DNA of 64,000 nt from Synechococcus sp. UW69. Lineage in GTDB: Bacteria > Cyanobacteriota > Cyanobacteriia > PCC-6307 > Cyanobiaceae. The stretch lies in NCBI RefSeq assembly GCF_900474185.1, contig NZ_UCNW01000011.1:124001-188000 (forward strand), in the 5' to 3' direction. The position numbers and the translations under genes are program-made. The notes beneath the pieces were generated by a model. It saw nothing but the letters and a program-made list of their open reading frames with translations. It searched no databases and was not told the origin of the DNA. Within the stretch, counting starts at the first letter, position 1. Each line of letters starts with the position of its first letter. Below, piece after piece: positions 16,062 to 42,016 of the stretch.

Positions 16062-16151
16062 CAGCGTTGGTACGGATCGGGTGGGATTGTCCCAGATCCC
16101 GGGCAAATCGATTGGAACCGACTTAATTTCGCCTTAATTAAATTCACCGCA

Positions 16152-33282: not shown

Positions 33283-34029
33283 ATGGGGAAGCAAGGCGTG
33301 CGAAGACCGGTGATCGCTGGCAACTGGAAAATGCACATGACGTGTGCCCAGTCGCGGGAGTTCATGGCGGCCTTCCTGCCGTTAATCGCTGACACCCCTG
33401 ACGACCGCGACCTGGTCTTGGCACCACCGTTCACGGCGGTATCCACAATGGCGGATCTCAGCCAAGGCTCCCGCCTTTGTCTCTCCAGCCAGAACGTGCA
33501 CTGGGAAGGCCAAGGAGCTTTTACTGGCGAGATCTCCCCTGCAATGCTCAAGGAGCATGGGGTCACCCACACGATCGTGGGCCACAGCGAACCAAGAAAA
33601 TATTTCAGTGAAAGCGACGAGCAAATCAACCACCGAGCCAGGTCATCCCAATCGAACGGTTTAATTCCGATCGTTTGTGTCGGTGAAAGTGATGAGCAAC
33701 GCGAACGCGGCGAAGCCGAACGGGTGATTCGACGCCAAATCGAGCAGGGTCTGGAGGGACTCGACGCCGAGAAGTTAGTCGTGGCCTACGAACCGATCTG
33801 GGCGATCGGAACAGGCAAAACCTGCGAAGCCGAGGAAGCAAACCGTATCTGCGGTCTGATCCGGAGCTGGGTCGGCTCCCCTGATCTCGTGATCCAGTAC
33901 GGAGGGTCCGTCAAACCCACCAACATCGATCAGTTGATGGGCATGAGCGATATCGATGGGGTGCTTGTGGGGGGCGCTTCCCTGGAACCCGAAAGCTTTG
34001 CCCGCATTGCGAATTACCAAACCGCTTGA
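33283..34029 (+). CDS. tpiA: Triosephosphate isomerase
   Basis: 248 residues from ATG 33283; GTG 33298 gives [14 protein letters not shown] directly at the N-terminus and is a strong alternative start. Catalytic residues are the Lys and Asn in AGNWKMH, the His in [18 protein letters not shown] and the Glu in [15 protein letters not shown]. It interconverts dihydroxyacetone phosphate and glyceraldehyde 3-phosphate in glycolysis and the Calvin cycle. GHSEPR replaces the more frequent GHSERR. The 3' end overlaps folP. Confidence 0.96.
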
Positions 34030-34852
34030 CTCAGGGGCCTGGCCCCAGGGCTGGCGCCAACGCACGACGGTGATGGGGGTCATCAACATCACCCCCGACT
34101 CCTTCAGTGATGGAGGAAGGTTCCTTGCAAGCGAACGTGCCCTCGCTGAAGCGCAGCGGCAACTGAACAACGGGGCCGACGTGTTGGATCTGGGCGCCCA
34201 GAGCACCCGACCTGGCGCGGAGGAGGTGGGTGAAGAGGAGGAATTGCGCAGGCTCCTGCCAGCACTGAAAACCATCCGGGAACGGTGCCCAGACGCCCTG
34301 ATCTCCGTCGACACGTTTCTCGCTCCGGTTGCCGCCAGGGCACTGGAGGCAGGTGCAAGCTGGATCAATGATGTGAGCGGTGGCAGACGCGACCCCGATC
34401 TGCTGCGGGTGGTCGCCGATGCCGGGTGTCCAGTGGTGCTGATGCACAGCCGCGGCAACAGTCAAAGCATGGATCAACTCACGAGCTACTCCGATGTCGT
34501 AGCGGATGTGAAAGGAGCGTTAGTGGAGCGCAGTGAGGCCGCCATCAAGGCGGGCGTCCAAGAAAGCCAGATCATCTGGGACCCAGGCCTTGGTTTCGCC
34601 AAGACTCACGAGCAGAACCTGCAACTGCTGCGGGATCTGGAACAACTGACCCGGGGGCCTCGACCTGTGCTGGTCGGCCCTTCACGCAAACGCTTCATTG
34701 GTGCCGTGCTCGACGAACCGAGACCAAAGGCGCGGCTCTGGGGAACCGCTGCGGTTGCCTGCCGTTGTGCTCAGGCCGGTGCAGCCGTGCTGAGGGTGCA
34801 CGATGTGGGTCCAATCAGCCAGACACTACGCATGGCTGCCGCACTCTGGTGA
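34007..34852 (+). CDS. folP: Dihydropteroate synthase
   Basis: About 281 residues from a TTG at 34007 that overlaps the tpiA end by 23 bp; ATG 34073 would remove the upstream WRQRTTV strand and is less likely. The first signature is [18 protein letters not shown], the second [18 protein letters not shown], followed by DVSGGRRDP and [15 protein letters not shown]. It joins p-aminobenzoate to the pterin pyrophosphate for folate synthesis. The stop is joined by an overlap of 4 bp (GTGA) to the glycosyltransferase gene. Confidence 0.93.
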
Positions 34853-35832
34853 CTGTCACGATCTTCGTGCAGATTGCGGCTTACCGAGACCCAGATCTTC
34901 CGGCCACACTTCACAACCTGATCGAGAGGGCAGCCCAGCCAGAACGCCTGCGCTTCGGCATCTGCCTGCAACTTGCCGATAACGATCCGAACCATTGGGG
35001 GACCAATGCGTTTCCGGATCATCCTCAGATCAGCGTCTGCTCGTTTCGTGCTTCTGACAGCCTGGGAGCCTGCTGGGCGCGACGACAGGCTCAGAGTTTT
35101 TACGGCGGGGAAGATTTTCTGCTCCAGATCGACAGTCATATGCGCGCTGTGGAGCACTGGGATGAGCTGCTGCTCATGACCTGGGCGGAATGCAGCGATC
35201 CAGGTGCAGTTCTGAGTGTTTACCCCAATGGCTTCCAGCCACCGTGCTTCCTACAGACGTCAACACTGCCGGTCATGGGAGCCGACGGCTTTGACGACAA
35301 CGGCATTCTCAGGTTCCAAGGCATCAGTCGTTTCCGATTGCCAGAACAACAGCCTGAGCGTCCAATCCCCGGGGCATTCATCGCCGGAGGATTCCTTTTC
35401 GGGCCTGGGTCGATCGCCAGCAGAGTGCCCTACGACCCAGGGCTCTATTTCTATGGGGAGGAAGTGGCCATGTCGGCACGGCTGTGGACCTCAGGCTTCA
35501 ATATTTACGCCCCGAACCGTCTGCTGCTTTTCCATCTCTACAAAACGGAAGCCACACCGGTCGAGCCATCAGCCAACCATTGGAGCGATCACGACAACTG
35601 GTTGGAGCTGAACCGAAAATCCTTGGTGCGGGTGCACACGCTCCTGCAAAGCCTTGATCGCGCTCCTCAGCAACTGAGGCCGACGGCCCGTGACGTGACT
35701 GACATCCACGACTACTGGCTTGGAGAGCAACGCTCCCTGCATGACTACGAGCGATGGGCGGGGGTGAATTTCAGGACGTCAGAGATCAGCGAAAGTGCTG
35801 AGCGTGGTCATTTCAGCACAACGCAAAACTGA
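34849..35832 (+). CDS. GlcNAc-transferase-domain glycosyltransferase (PF11397-like)
   Basis: 327 residues from GTG 34849, inside the folP stop. TIFVQIAAYRDPDLPATLHN, RFGICLQLADND and GACWARRQAQSFYGGEDFLL with LQIDSHMRAVEHWDELLL are the marks of the eukaryote-like UDP-GlcNAc transferase family (Skp1 type) that also occurs in bacteria. The DSH motif is the probable metal-binding DxD equivalent. GGFLFGPGSIASRVPYDPGL and FYGEEVAMSARLW follow. It is the last core-like gene before the A+T-rich P-loop genes. Confidence 0.8.
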   Translation: MTVTIFVQIAAYRDPDLPATLHNLIERAAQPERLRFGICLQLADNDPNHWGTNAFPDHPQISVCSFRASDSLGACWARRQAQSFYGGEDFLLQIDSHMRAVEHWDELLLMTWAECSDPGAVLSVYPNGFQPPCFLQTSTLPVMGADGFDDNGILRFQGISRFRLPEQQPERPIPGAFIAGGFLFGPGSIASRVPYDPGLYFYGEEVAMSARLWTSGFNIYAPNRLLLFHLYKTEATPVEPSANHWSDHDNWLELNRKSLVRVHTLLQSLDRAPQQLRPTARDVTDIHDYWLGEQRSLHDYERWAGVNFRTSEISESAERGHFSTTQN

Positions 35833-35845
35833 AGATGCATAAAAA

Positions 35846-35968
35846 CTGACCACTCCCAATCAGCACACAGAAGTGAAGACCTGAGGAGCAAGCAAAAGCG
35901 GAGAACCGCTCCAAACTAGACATTAAGAGGAAATTAAGCTAAGGTTAGATTGAGGTCTAGATCGCTAG
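35846..35968 (+). repeat. Leader repeat, copy 1
   Basis: The 123 bp before the first P-loop gene align by eye with 36826-36949 before the second. Shared blocks are CTGACCACT at the 5' end, GAGGAGCAAGCAAA, AACTAGACATTAAG, AATTAAGCTAAG and GCTAGATGCAAATA at the start codon. The duplicated unit therefore includes promoter and gene, with a period of about 980 bp. Confidence 0.8.
35920..35949. promoter_or_regulatory. Three 11-bp-period repeats upstream of P-loop gene 1 (operator-like)
   Basis: ACATTAAG-AGG-AAATTAAG-CTA-AGGTTAGA: three 8-mers separated by 3 bp. Read on the minus strand they fit the cyanobacterial Pho-box pattern PyTTAAPyPy(T/A) with one mismatch in two units. An 11-bp period is usual for OmpR/PhoB-family sites. 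They end 19 bp before the ATG, the same distance as in copy 2. Confidence 0.45.
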
Positions 35969-36790
35969 ATGCAAATAGCAGAAACGGCTGAGCAAAAAAG
36001 AGCAAAAAAGAAAGGGCACAACGAAAAAGATTTAAAAACCTGCTTCATCATCGCGGGCTGTTCTGGAGCAGGGAAATCAACCATCGTCAAACATTCCCAT
36101 GCTCTTGACGTAAAGCTCTTCGGGAAAGAATTCCATGAGGATTTCAAGAAAACAAGGAGTGGTAGCCCCCATCAAGAATTTGATAAATATTCCGATGCAA
36201 TCAGAAATGGGGCAACCTTCGAAGGAAGGCACATTAAAAATCTAAAGGACGAAAAAGACCCACCAAAGCATATCCTTATGCATGTCGATCTTAAATCTTT
36301 AATCCGCACTCTTGGTCACCGTGCTGCATCAGAAAACGATAAAAGAAAAATCAAATCGCTCACCAAATTCCCCACACCCCACGAAGACAGAGTGAATCCG
36401 AAGGTCTGTGACTTATTAGTATCTAGCTTTCTCAAGCATCAATTTTTTTCAAGGTTTGACGCTATTGTTATCAACACAGTCTACACAGATTGCGATAAAA
36501 ATTACGTGCAAAAAATGAAAAGAGATCGACCAAACGAAAAAATCAAAAGACACAAAAAAAGTGAAATATTTTCTAGGGAGCATCACGCCATGTACGAGGC
36601 GTGGGAACGAAATATTTACCTGCTTAAACCTTCCAGAATATCATTTACCACAGTCTGTGAAGACGGAGGGCTTTACTCTAACAATAAATGCATCTGCCCA
36701 GACTGGACTTCAAAAGTAAGCCCGAACAATGATCTAAATTATTTCAACAAAATTCTCGCCTATTTCAGGAAATCCGAAAGCAAAAACTAA
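35969..36790 (+). CDS. P-loop NTPase of unknown family, tandem copy 1
   Basis: 273 residues. Walker A lies at about 28-45: FIIAGCSGAGKSTIVKHS. Downstream conserved blocks are EDFKKTRSG, HILMHVDLKSL, VSSFLKHQFFSRFDAIVINT and AWERNIYLLKPSRISFTTV; NKCIC near the end might bind metal. The N-terminus and many surfaces are Lys/Glu-rich. Codon use is A+T-rich (Lys AAA, Ile ATA, Asn AAT), unlike the G+C-rich neighbours, which suggests recent transfer. It could be a kinase or sulfotransferase-like enzyme, but no family is recognised. Copy 1 carries an extra C-terminal 19 residues or so. Confidence 0.75.
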   Translation: MQIAETAEQKRAKKKGHNEKDLKTCFIIAGCSGAGKSTIVKHSHALDVKLFGKEFHEDFKKTRSGSPHQEFDKYSDAIRNGATFEGRHIKNLKDEKDPPKHILMHVDLKSLIRTLGHRAASENDKRKIKSLTKFPTPHEDRVNPKVCDLLVSSFLKHQFFSRFDAIVINTVYTDCDKNYVQKMKRDRPNEKIKRHKKSEIFSREHHAMYEAWERNIYLLKPSRISFTTVCEDGGLYSNNKCICPDWTSKVSPNNDLNYFNKILAYFRKSESKN

Positions 36791-36825
36791 TTCTTTAATG
36801 TGAGCTGCAATTGTTGCTATCCAGG

Positions 36826-36949
36826 CTGACCACTAGCACATTCAAAACACAAAGCACATACCAGAGGAGCAAGCAAAGGCATAGAGCCCATCAAAACTAG
36901 ACATTAAGAAGGAATTAAGCTAAGATTAGGATTAGGCCTGGTTTGCTAG
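36826..36949 (+). repeat. Leader repeat, copy 2
   Basis: Counterpart of 35846-35968, diverged but with the same order of blocks from CTGACCACT to GCTAGATGCAAATA. It replaces any separate terminator between the two genes. Confidence 0.8.
36901..36930. promoter_or_regulatory. Three 11-bp-period repeats upstream of P-loop gene 2 (operator-like)
   Basis: ACATTAAG-AAG-GAATTAAG-CTA-AGATTAGG, same spacing and same 19-bp distance to the ATG as in copy 1. The repeats are better conserved between the copies than the flanking leader bases, which suggests selection. Confidence 0.45.
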
Positions 36950-37714
36950 ATGCAAATATCAGAACCAATAAATCAGAAGAATAAAATTGAGTACAGATCA
37001 ACTGCAAAAGATTTAAAAACCTGCCTGATTATTGCTGGATGCTCAGGGGCAGGGAAATCAACAATAATCAAACATTCTCACACTCTTGACGTAAATCTCT
37101 ACGGCCAGAAATTCCACGAAGATTTCAAGAAAACAAGGAGTGGCATCCCCCATCAAGAATATGATGATTACATCGAAGCAATTAAAAATGGATCAACCTT
37201 TGAAGGCAGATTTATTAATAATTTAAACAACCAGAAGCAGCTCTCGAAGCATATTCTCATGCACATCGATCTAAAACTTTTAACCGCTATTCTTGGACAT
37301 CATGCCTCAGACGAAAGCGACAGAAGAAAAATTGCATCGCTTACAAAAATTCCAGTACCTCGCAAAAAAAGAGCAGATCAAAAAATTTGCGATTTAATGG
37401 TGTCCAGTTTTCTCAAGCATCAATTTTTTTCAAGGTTTGAAAATATCATCGTCAACACAATATACACCAATTCAAGCAAGGCTTACATTCAAAAAATGAA
37501 GCGAGATTGCCCTGAGAAAAACATCAAATCCCAAAAAGAGTTGAAAATATATGCAAGGGAGCATCGTGCGATGTATAGAGCATGGGAAAAAAATATTTAC
37601 CTTCTCAAGCCTTCAAAAATATTTTTTACCACAGTTGGCGAAGACGGAAACCTTTACTCCAACAACAAGTGCATTTGCTCTAATTGGACAATCAAAACAG
37701 GATTAAACCATTAA
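36950..37714 (+). CDS. P-loop NTPase of unknown family, tandem copy 2
   Basis: 254 residues, about two-thirds identical by eye to copy 1 over most of its length. Walker A is LIIAGCSGAGKSTIIKHS. The blocks EDFKKTRSG, HILMHIDLKLL, VSSFLKHQFFSRFENIIVNT and AWEKNIYLLKPSKIFFTTV and the final NKCIC are retained, so both copies look intact and under constraint. The N-terminus differs more. A+T-rich codon use as in copy 1. It is followed by a 177-bp A+T-rich spacer and then the 3' end of chlH. Confidence 0.75.
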   Translation: MQISEPINQKNKIEYRSTAKDLKTCLIIAGCSGAGKSTIIKHSHTLDVNLYGQKFHEDFKKTRSGIPHQEYDDYIEAIKNGSTFEGRFINNLNNQKQLSKHILMHIDLKLLTAILGHHASDESDRRKIASLTKIPVPRKKRADQKICDLMVSSFLKHQFFSRFENIIVNTIYTNSSKAYIQKMKRDCPEKNIKSQKELKIYAREHRAMYRAWEKNIYLLKPSKIFFTTVGEDGNLYSNNKCICSNWTIKTGLNH

Positions 37715-37891: not shown

Positions 37892-40800
37892 TTAGTCTGT
37901 AACAACACCCTCAATACGATCCTCCACTTCTTGATAAAGCTCCTGCAACTGCTCGATGTTTTCGTCTGAGGTCTCCCAATAACCCCGACCATGCACCTCG
38001 AGAAGCGTGCCCACAATTTGGCGGAAACTATTGGGGTTCAGTTCCAGCAGACGCTTGCGCATCTCCGGATCATTGATGAAGGTTTCATTGGCTTCCTCGT
38101 AGACAAAATTGTCGACGGCGCCACTAGTGGCACTCCAGCCCAGAGTGAAGTTGAGCCGTTTTGAAACCTCACGCACACCCTCATATCCGGAATTAAGCAT
38201 GCCCTCATACCACTTGGGGTTCAGCAACTTTGTGCGTGAATCCAATCGAATGGTTTCGCTCAACGAGCGAACCTGGGCGTTGGCCGTGGTGGTATCAGCG
38301 ATATAGCTGGTGGGAGCTTTGCCGTCGTCACGAAGTCCGGCAATCAACTTTGTGGGGTCGGAATCGAAGTAGTGGCTCACATCGGTGAGGGAGATCTCAG
38401 CAGAGTCCAAGTTCTGGAAGGTGACATCCGCGGTCTTCATCACGTTCTCGAACACCTCCCGCTTCTGGTTCATCTCGCCAGGATTGTCGGCATTGAAGGC
38501 AAAAGTCTTACGAGAGAGATACATCTCCTGAAGTTCGCCCTCCTCTTCCCAGGTGCTGTTTTCAACAGCCAGATTCACGTTGGAGCTATAGCTGCCGCTG
38601 GCATTGGAAAACACCCGGCAGGCTGCATCCCGAAGACTGGTTCCTTCCTTCTCCGCCTGCTCCAGGGCATGCTTGCGCACGAAGTTCTGCTCCAGGGGCT
38701 CATCGGCCTCGGCCGCCATTTTCACGGCCTGATCAATCAGGGCCATCTGGTTGATGAACAGATCACGGAACACACCGGAGCAGTTCACCACCACATCAAC
38801 ACGGGGGCGTCCGAGTTCTTCCAGAGGAATCAGCTCGAGTTTGTTGACTCGACCAACGGAATCCGGCATCGGCTTGACACCAACGAACCAGAGGATCTGA
38901 GCCAGGGATTCGCCGTAGGTCTTGATGTTGTCAGTTCCCCAGAGCACACAGGCAATGGTCTCGGGCCATGTGCCCTGCTCCTCGCGCTGACGGTCAATCA
39001 GCTTGTCAACAACACCCTTGGCTGCTGCGACCGCAGCGCGGGTAGGAATCGCCTGCGGGTCCAGTGCATGGATGTTCTTGCCACTGGGCAGCACGCCAGG
39101 ATTACGAATCGGGTCGCCACCAGGACCCGGAAGGATGTATTCGCCATCAAGAGCCTTCAACAGACTCTCCATCTCCATGTCGGCACACACCTGCTCGAGA
39201 CAGAAGCGCAGGTAAGCAAAGAGCTTGTCGAGCTCGGTGGCGTCGATCTGAACGAAGCCAGCGGTGCAGCAGGCCCGCAGCCAGGGGGAGGGCAGCTTGA
39301 AACCAAACTTGGCCAGGAGGTCGTAGAACCAGCCAAAGCTGTTGCGCAAGCTGACCCGGCCGTCACGACCGGTGAGCGTACGGACCATGGCTCCGATCGC
39401 AGCTCGGGATGTCTCCGTGATCGTGCGATTGAGCTCAACGTCGGCGAGCACACCCTCGTCATTGCCTTTGTAGACATCCTCGATGGAACGACCTATCGCT
39501 TCAGCCAACAATCCGGGAAGCGAACGGAGGCCATCCTCCTCACGCTCCAGAGCAGCGATGTTCACCAATGTGGCAATGGCTTCCTCTGCAGTGGGAGGTT
39601 TACCGATGGTGTGGAGACCACAGGGCAGAAGACGGCTCTCGATCTCCATCAACTGTCGGTAGACGGCACCGACCAAGGCATCGCGCCCTTCCAGGTCGAT
39701 GGAAGAGGCGTCGTCTTCGGGCAGGTCGACATCCTTATCGAGGTTGCACTGACGCGCCGTCTCAATGATGGTGTTGACGATTTGAACGCCGCGGCCACCT
39801 TCACGCAGCTGTTGGTAGGAACCAACAAGCTCACCCAACTCCTTCAGACCCCGGTAGAGGCCTGCATTTTCAGCCGGTGGGGTGAGGTAGCTGATGGTCG
39901 AGGCGTAGCCACGACGCTTGGCGATGGTGGCTTCCGAGGGGTTATTGGCGGCGTAGTAATAGAGGTTTGGGAGGGCACCGATCAATGAATCGGGGTAGCA
40001 GGTTTCACTCATGCCCATCTGCTTGCCGGGCATGAACTCCAGGGAGCCATGGGTGCCGAAGTGGAGCACCGCATCGGCCTTCCAGATCTTCTGCAGATAG
40101 GTGTAGTAGGCAGCAAATCCATGGTGGGGACTTGCACTACGGGAGTAGAGCAAGCGCATGGGGTCGCCTTCGTAGCCGAAGGTGGGCTGAACGCCGACAA
40201 AGACATTGCCGAAGTGGCGACCGAAGACCAGCAAATTTTGGCCATCGCTGTTGAGATTGCCGGGAGGCTTGCCCCAGTTCTCTTCAAGCCTCTCGGAGTA
40301 AGGGGTCAGGCGTTCGTATTCCTCAACGCTCATCCGATGGGCAATGGAAAGCTCCGGCGAGCCCTGCATGGCATCGGCGTCGTTGATCACCGCCTCCAGC
40401 AGATCACGAGGCGTCGAAGGCAAGCCCTGCACGTCGTAGCCCTTCGCCTTCATCTCCTGCATCACCCGATGGATGGAACCGAAGACGTCGAGATAGGCCG
40501 CCGTTCCGACATTGCCCTTGTCGGGAGGGAAGCTGAACACCGTGATCGCCAGCTTCTTGTCGATCCGGGGCTTGATCCGTAGCGACGACCAACGAATCGC
40601 GCGCTCAGCGATGGCATCAACACGATCTTGAAGGGTATGTGCCTTGCCGGTGGCATCGTCGCGGCCGGAGAGAACGATCGGCTCGATCGCGCCATCCAAT
40701 TCAGGGATGGCGATTTGCAGGGCCACCTGCACAGGGTGAAGGCCGAGGTCGCTCTGTTCCCACTCCTGGGTGGTTTGGAACACAAGAGGAAGCGCGACCA

Positions 40801-41902
40801 TATATGGACGATTGAGCTTCTTCAGGGATTCAATGGCTTTCGGGTGGTCCTGGCGAGCAGGCCCTCCGACCAGTGCAAAGCCCGTCAGGGAGACGATCCC
40901 ATCCACCAAGGGCTGCTCGGGATTCAGGGGGTCGAAGAAGAAGGCGTTTACCGGCTTGGAGAAATCGAGACCACCGCAGAAGATCGGGAGGACTCGCGCA
41001 CCGCGAAACTCCAGTTCCTGAATGATGGCGACGTAGTGGGCATCGTCACCGGTGACGATGTGGCTGCGCTGCAACACCAGACCAATCACGGGCCCCTTAA
41101 GGGCTTTCTCAGAAAGATCAGTACGACTTGACGTCCAGTTCAGATACTCCTTGAGGTCCTCAAACATCGAAGGGGCAAGGGGGTGCCAAATGCCAAGGTC
41201 AGGGAAGACCTCGGGCTCCGCCACCTCCATCGCTGGACGTTCATCTCCTTCCGCTGCAGGAAAGACGTACTTGTCCGCCAGCATCAGCAGGAAATTGCGC
41301 AGGTTGTCGGGCGTCCCCCCCAACCAGTACTGAAAGCTCAGCATGAAGCTGCGGGCATCCTGCGCTTTTTCAACCGGCAGGTACTTGAGAACGGTGGGCA
41401 GCGTGTTCAGCAGCTTGAGCATGGCGTCTTGGAAACCGGCGCCACCGGCTTCCTTCCGCTTCTTCATGAAGCCAGCAATGGCGCTCTTGCTCTGACCAAG
41501 CTGCGCCATGGAGAAGCTGCCCAGCTTGTTGAGCCGCATCACCTCGGGCATGGACGGGAAGACCACCGCTGCTTTCAGGCGATCTCGGTGAGGAGCCACT
41601 GCATCAACAACCTTTTGTGCCAGGTCCTCGATGAAGATCAGCGAGGCGATAAACACATCCGCCTCGGCCACGTCTGCACAGAACCCGGCGTAGTTGTCCT
41701 CGTCTCGCAGTTCCTCGATCAAGTAGCCGCTCAGCTCGATTCCGAGATCTCCACCAGAGGCGTTAAGCGCAGTAGCTGCCTGGGTTAGGGCGTTTTGATA
41801 CTGGGGCTCAAGCACCACATAAACCGCCTTCATCACGGATTTGTGGTTCTGACCCTCCACAGGAGCAACGCGGCGATCGGCGGAGCGGACCTGTGTGAAC
41901 AT
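37892..41902 (-). CDS. chlH: Magnesium chelatase subunit H (protoporphyrin IX-binding)
   Basis: 1336 residues from ATG 41902, the usual ChlH/BchH length. The start is chosen because [20 protein letters not shown] followed by [19 protein letters not shown] matches the family N-terminus; ATG 41917 adds five residues. Conserved CobN/Mg-chelatase parts include [40 protein letters not shown] and [20 protein letters not shown]-like C-terminal sequence. With ChlI and ChlD, absent here, it inserts Mg2+ into protoporphyrin IX, committing it to chlorophyll. Long plus-strand ORFs over it are shadows. Confidence 0.97.
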
Positions 41903-42016
41903 CAGCGCTTTGAGCAATGTGAAGAACCTTACGGTGACCGCCCCTTGGGCGCGAGGATTTTGGATCGGCCGTTACACGAGCCGCCCCATAGGCTTTGAAG
42001 CGTCTGCTGCGCTTTC

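Follow-up and report, generated by a model that had tools for sequence, protein, structure and literature searches.

A lineage-restricted, tandemly duplicated family of P-loop NTPases in Synechococcus sp. UW69 with Pho-box-like promoters and a probable place in the Pho regulon

Phosphate is limiting for marine picocyanobacteria in many waters. According to a 2007 survey, the cyanobacterial SphR/PhoB site comprises at least three tandem 8-bp repeats, the Synechocystis repeat unit being CTTAACCT, taken here with 3-bp linkers (PMC1906773); Pho regulon genes such as pstS and pstC-A-B carry tandem TTAA-cored repeats of this kind upstream, and the supplementary tables of the survey list many hypothetical genes with boxes. 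The same survey describes pstS and pstCAB without a Pho box in four marine picocyanobacterial genomes, including WH8102 (PMC1906773), a result that runs against expectation. A second described system is psip1, a picocyanobacterial phosphate-starvation gene that was long of unknown function and was later shown to encode an alkaline phosphatase (PMC11098088). Like psip1 (PMC11098088), the gene family described below is patchily distributed, restricted to certain strains and a predicted target of phosphate control, although it encodes a different protein, the likeness is that of a niche gene only, and its phosphate control is predicted from sequence. Like the cyanobacterial Pho regulon genes, its members are preceded by 8-bp repeats with a TTAA core, arranged in tandem with 3-bp linkers (PMC1906773); unlike Pho regulon products, the encoded protein belongs to no known type of transporter, phosphatase or regulator.

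We analyzed a 64,000-nucleotide stretch of the Synechococcus sp. UW69 genome (the window), in which two P-loop NTPase genes lie in tandem on the forward strand, copy 1 at 35969..36790 and copy 2 at 36950..37714. Both frames are open, with 273 and 254 codons, respectively, both contain the Walker A motif GCSGAGKST, and copy 1 is further supported by the family alignment. The two proteins are 64% identical, close to the two-thirds estimated by eye in the first-pass annotation, which had rightly described two intact tandem genes sharing this Walker A motif and preceded by similar leaders. The leaders (35833..35968 for copy 1 and 36791..36949 for copy 2, forward strand) agree at 104 of 135 aligned columns (77%), compared to 541 of 762 columns (71%) in the coding DNA, 31 of 36 columns (86%) in the box region described below, and 55% at third codon positions; the leader is thus conserved beyond mostly silent sites. 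The dN/dS ratio between the copies is 0.19 (NG86; dS 1.28), a sign of purifying selection on the pair, in agreement with the earlier suggestion that both copies were retained as useful. In the tree, copy 2 clusters with the chlH-side copy of another genome of the genus, G216 (support 98/96), so that the duplication is older than the split from G216; by this placement the tandem duplication is old. A third paralogue, with 28% identity, resides elsewhere in the same genome (C4, site B below). The G+C contents of copies 1 and 2 are 0.397 and 0.361, respectively, versus 0.580 for the window, which bears out the compositional contrast that had been noticed earlier.

Each leader contains a Pho-box-like operator made of three 8-bp repeats separated by 3-bp linkers, located at 35920..35949 for copy 1 and, in the same form, at 36901..36930 for copy 2; both read better on the reverse strand, with 19 nt between the end of the box and the ATG. 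The repetition of the leader had been seen in the first-pass annotation, but its nature as a Pho-box-like operator had been missed. TTAA-cored repeats with an 11-bp period near the start were also found at the genus copies of both genomic sites that hold the family. Two or three such 8-bp repeats or more stand in tandem upstream, the third being weak in two of the 13 genus copies. The same box is found before known phosphate genes of this genome, i.e., pstS and pstC. When the genome was searched for TTAA-N7-TTAA-N7-TTAA with at most one mismatch, four places were retrieved: copy 1, copy 2, the site B paralogue, and pstS. The reversed control pattern matched six places, so the count itself is ordinary and it is the placement that matters. 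Likewise, the number of exact TTAA-N7-TTAA matches was not raised (12 versus 30 for the control); four of these 12 lie at the family, one lies upstream of pstC, and the other seven are at genes not recognised as phosphate genes. Of the exact TTAA-N7-TTAA matches, one in the window (16123-16137) stands before a gene that by eye resembles an amino-acid ABC substrate-binding protein gene, and one elsewhere in the genome (C11:9364) before a gene that by eye is permease-like.

To compare the family with pstS across the genus, we counted TTAA letters at an 11-bp period within 250 nt upstream, a profile-free measure in which all 29 pstS loci were kept; the 165 control genes came from the window and 13 fetched stretches, after removal of split leaders and a truncated family copy. 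At least 11 of the 12 box letters were present at 9 of 13 genus copies and 12 of 29 pstS loci and at none of the 165 control genes, and two perfect boxes at 10 of 13, 7 of 29, and 1 of 165, respectively. With periods of 9, 10, 12, and 13, no family copy reached 11 letters; at period 10, four of the 29 pstS loci did so, which is some excess. A profile was then built from pstS promoters, using the best TTAA triple in the 400 nt upstream of 24 of the 29 loci, the five with no more than 8 of 12 letters being dropped; because it was built on the best triple, this profile leans towards the triple, a selection bias of which both the letter count and the profile of published boxes are free. By the pstS profile, 11 of 13 genus copies scored 15.4 to 27.8, while the top score among 181 controls, 17.4, belonged to the truncated family copy and the next was 13.6. 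The published-box profile was made from 27 of 30 tabulated boxes, excluding three PCC7942 rows that repeat PCC6301, and with it, for 11 of 13 genus copies, no more than 8 of 900 background windows scored as high or higher, some of the top windows being possibly family leaders cut in two; of 100 shuffles of the A+T-rich leaders, up to 10 attained the score in this profile.

Individual copies varied between these tests. The chlH-side copy of G216 and the site A copy of G004 were ordinary by the pstS profile, being reached by 10 and 12 of 181 controls, and have two perfect boxes each; by the published profile, the ordinary ones were the site A copy of G004 and the site B paralogue of the UW69 genome, with 32 and 43 of 900 background windows reaching them. 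Of two distant relatives, G231 was reached by 5 of 900 windows when scored with published boxes, was ordinary in the other tests and has no convincing box, and G142 is without a box; a fragmented copy in G225 was excluded from every box count. Altogether, the presence of Pho boxes upstream of both the family and pstS, together with their rarity in controls, suggests that the family probably belongs to the Pho regulon.

We also examined the pst genes and PhoB-like regulators of this genome. Its PstS scored over the model cut-off, with the three-box pattern upstream. At C8:202334-204450 there are two tandem pstS-like genes, 75% identical; the three-box pattern occupies the interval that separates them and precedes the second in the reading direction. 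Geometry and sign are the weak points of the Pho reading. The window boxes score best on the reverse strand, whereas the pstS box reads on the coding strand, with a gap of about 34 nt to the first possible start and of about 84 nt to the first Met; in orientation and distance, the window boxes do not follow the arrangement at pstS, being closer to the start codon than those of cyanobacterial Pho genes and inverted, a difference that need not concern a defining feature. With the box 19 nt from the ATG, activation there would mean a very short 5' leader, and the window boxes may instead serve repression. As for the regulator, 11 PhoB-like matches were detected, none over the PhoB cut-off; the best of them, C11:26479, scored 225 bits, below the cut-off of 296, with PhoB the best of 60 models, and is followed by a frame with the histidine-kinase motif HELKTPLT. 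Elsewhere, purified PhoB of strain WH7803 has been used in DNA-binding assays of the EMSA or DNase-footprint kind (PMC10976474).

These observations bear on an alternative that we consider unlikely, namely that the repeats are a true operator but are bound by a regulator other than PhoB, perhaps another OmpR-type protein, or that PhoB acts on them as a repressor. RpaB is an OmpR-type regulator able to bind direct repeats. Such a reading would accommodate the 11 PhoB-like matches, all under the cut-off, and the box near the start codon, inverted at the window site, but a different regulator would not be expected from the recurrence of the same 11-bp form before pstS in the genus (11 or more of the 12 letters at 12 of 29 loci) and before pstC in the same genome, or from its agreement with the published SphR sites (PMC1906773). 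Control by PhoB remains the preferred reading of the operator.

Next, we surveyed the distribution of the family. Ten of 34 genus genomes hold it, one of them (G225) as fragments only, so the family is patchy among relatives. A 13-member profile matched 13 of the 34 genomes at E 0.001; in three of these, G304, G305, and G309, the match covered only the surroundings of Walker A (E 3.6e-4 to 7e-4), and they were therefore left out, giving the genus count of 10. In family-level samples of 300 and 400 genomes, matches occurred in 11 and 14, respectively, and in a phylum sample in 4 of 386, all from the same genus. The genus copies occupy two fixed addresses. Site A lies between folP and chlH and is occupied in the window (two copies), G004, G234, G061, and G216, the last with two copies separated by about 28 kb, one next to folP and the other close to chlH; in the window its left border is folP (33956..34852, forward strand, TIGR01496 over cut-off) and its right border is chlH/bchH, encoding magnesium chelatase subunit H (37892..41917, reverse strand, NF009140 and TIGR02025 over cut-off). 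Site B, near an SMC-like gene, is situated between a methyltransferase-like gene and the few small genes that precede the SMC-like gene (named by eye), and is occupied in the UW69 genome, G004, G207, G242, G186, G225 (remains), and G302 (assigned by its upstream neighbour). At both sites the G+C content of the family copies is below that of the surroundings, in all 14 copies measured. The idea of an A+T-rich insert is therefore right in that the genes are A+T-rich and missing from most relatives, but it does not fit the two fixed addresses of the family; the pair is part of a lineage-restricted, duplicated family with a Pho-box-like promoter and no isolated insert curiosity.

Several irregularities were seen among these copies. 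The roughly 28 kb that separate the two copies at the folP-chlH site of G216 (C1 ~1353500-1381100) contain, at the ends examined, genes that by eye point to type I secretion (HlyD-like and ABC-transporter-like), an EAL-like gene and a Mur-ligase-like gene; the two copies seem to have been parted by the arrival of an island. In G061, G207, and G302, homopolymer runs (A8; T7, which is T6 in G242; and T6, respectively) interrupt the reading frame between the likely start and Walker A; slippage/phase variation, decay, or sequencing error could account for this. In four site B copies and in the G234 copy, the stretch before Walker A offers no ATG; TTG would suit as the start codon in the four, and perhaps CTG in G234. 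The folP-side copy of G216 contains an internal TAG and G225 retains fragments, whereas the TAG in G302 falls at the very end of the protein and was not counted as decay. Duplicated and patchy, the copies suggest active turnover.

It might be asked whether the window pair is itself a decaying accessory gene, with an operator merely inherited from an ancestor and little present role, given the internal TAG in G216, the fragments in G225, and the 24 of 34 genus genomes without the family. We regard this as decidedly unlikely, since the window copies are intact, their dN/dS is 0.19 over the time since a duplication that predates the G216 split, and the non-coding operator has outlasted the third codon positions.

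To characterize the protein, we compared family members with profile and structure libraries. No Pfam or NCBIfam model scored over its cut-off, and no match in PHROGs or PADLOC was better than E 3.5e-4, so the description of the genes as unrecognised holds. Matches in the family libraries and PDB were weak and mostly over Walker A: the PHROGs family phrog_2071, 'ATPase', matched 11 of 13 members (best E 4.8e-4), PADLOC gave E 0.0025 and 0.0098, the Pfam model Zeta_toxin matched 3 of 13 members (best E 0.017), and the best PDB match, at E 5.5e-5, was a small phosphate-loop protein. After removal of the Walker A part, no PDB sequence was matched at E of up to 10, and only two poor Pfam matches were left, ELMO_CED12 and Toprim, in one member each. 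Contig scans for named relatives, with one protein and a 6-row alignment as queries, returned none. Two AlphaFold models, of both window proteins and of one alone, had mean pLDDT values of 33.3 and 34.5 and were unusable.

In the 13-row family alignment (copy 2 numbering), the Walker A residues G30, G35, and K36 are invariant in all rows, as are F59, F84, L92, L103, D107, F160, R162, F163, T170, Q181, R185, H205, Y209, and W212. Like the P-loop kinases guanylate kinase and zeta toxin, the family has a Walker A motif of the form GxxGxGKS/T followed by a predicted strand ending in D (LLHxDL), and a later predicted strand followed by QxxxR, a possible lid as read by eye; unlike them, it has conserved FFxRF and HxxxYxxW motifs that match nothing known, and no P-loop kinase family model matched it over a curated cut-off. 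Read by eye, the order of Walker A, a likely strand ending in D107, a likely strand followed by Q181 and R185, and H205-W212 recalls P-loop kinases, and by this order the chemistry is probably that of a kinase-like phosphotransferase or an NTPase. Among the papers retrieved in literature searches, none describes the family in its title or in the opening of its abstract; an orthologue may be listed in the supplement of PMC1906773 or in two WH8102 phosphate studies cited in PMC11098088 (Tetu 2009, Ostrowski 2010). The protein family is unnamed, while its regulatory class is known.

The weak Zeta_toxin and PADLOC matches, and the patchy, A+T-rich, duplicated character of the family with its two decayed genus copies, would agree with a mobile accessory toxin or defence gene encoding a zeta-like kinase. 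We find this very improbable: the matches are all weak and those to Zeta_toxin disappear once Walker A is removed, viral contigs and phage records contain no relative, the family sits at fixed addresses, and no small partner gene is seen in an operon with the window copies. A phage or plasmid origin was also considered and set aside, as viral contigs and phage records lack a relative and the plasmid matches, in three records, were confined to 30 residues over Walker A.

Finally, the window pair is preceded by a glycosyltransferase gene (34855..35832, start codon not determined, forward strand; PF11397, E 1.5e-68), a neighbour by position that probably does not belong to the system, which had been named correctly as a GlcNAc-type enzyme and had led to the guess that the pair modifies surface glycans. 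We resolved the folP-chlH site in 29 of 34 genus genomes, the other five being unresolvable: a glycosyltransferase is present at 23, a P-loop gene at 5, both at 2, and neither at 3, so that the glycosyltransferase is alone at 21 sites and the P-loop gene at 3. The glycosyltransferase is thus the commoner tenant of the site and mostly lacks a P-loop companion; the two are largely independent, the neighbourhood looks positional, and the surface-glycan guess is left unsupported. In G249 and G273, this glycosyltransferase matches in two pieces or frames, and in G004 it is split into two open reading frames, so it may also be decaying there. That the P-loop genes act in surface glycan modification with the adjacent enzyme, which does adjoin them in the window and in G004, is scarcely tenable in view of the joint occurrence at 2 of 29 sites only, the lack of any relative of the PF11397 enzyme among the open reading frames fetched around site B, and the separate operator before each P-loop copy.

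We therefore return to the Pho regulon and assign a probability of roughly 0.6 to the reading that the two window genes and the third paralogue are members of a lineage-restricted, kinase-like P-loop NTPase family of this regulon, concerned with phosphate stress and not with glycans. Under phosphate shortage, PhoB/SphR is predicted to bind the repeats; this binding, activation over repression, and kinase-like chemistry are what we infer, beyond the computed results on the pair and its boxes. As each copy has its own Pho-box-like operator, all three copies would switch together, and the two tandem copies would provide a greater dose. The protein is predicted to bind nucleotide via Walker A, and the resulting enzyme, kinase-like by its motif pattern, would act in phosphate-stress metabolism. 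The pair thus probably serves the response to scarce phosphate rather than the building of a sugar coat, within a patchy, duplicated, phosphate-stress family that probably belongs to the Pho regulon.

For an orphan P-loop family, the predicted regulation is a first handle, as it indicates when an activity should be sought. We see about even odds that this undescribed multi-copy P-loop kinase family, with up to three copies per genome and strong Pho boxes, constitutes a niche-specific arm of the phosphate-starvation response in some of the picocyanobacteria, and that it supplies a new activity, phosphotransfer or NTP-consuming, at the very time when phosphate runs short. Among strain-specific phosphate genes without a known function, some have proved important, as in the case of psip1 (PMC11098088). 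If the present reading is true, an ATP-using enzyme induced when phosphate is scarce would pose a problem well worth pursuing.
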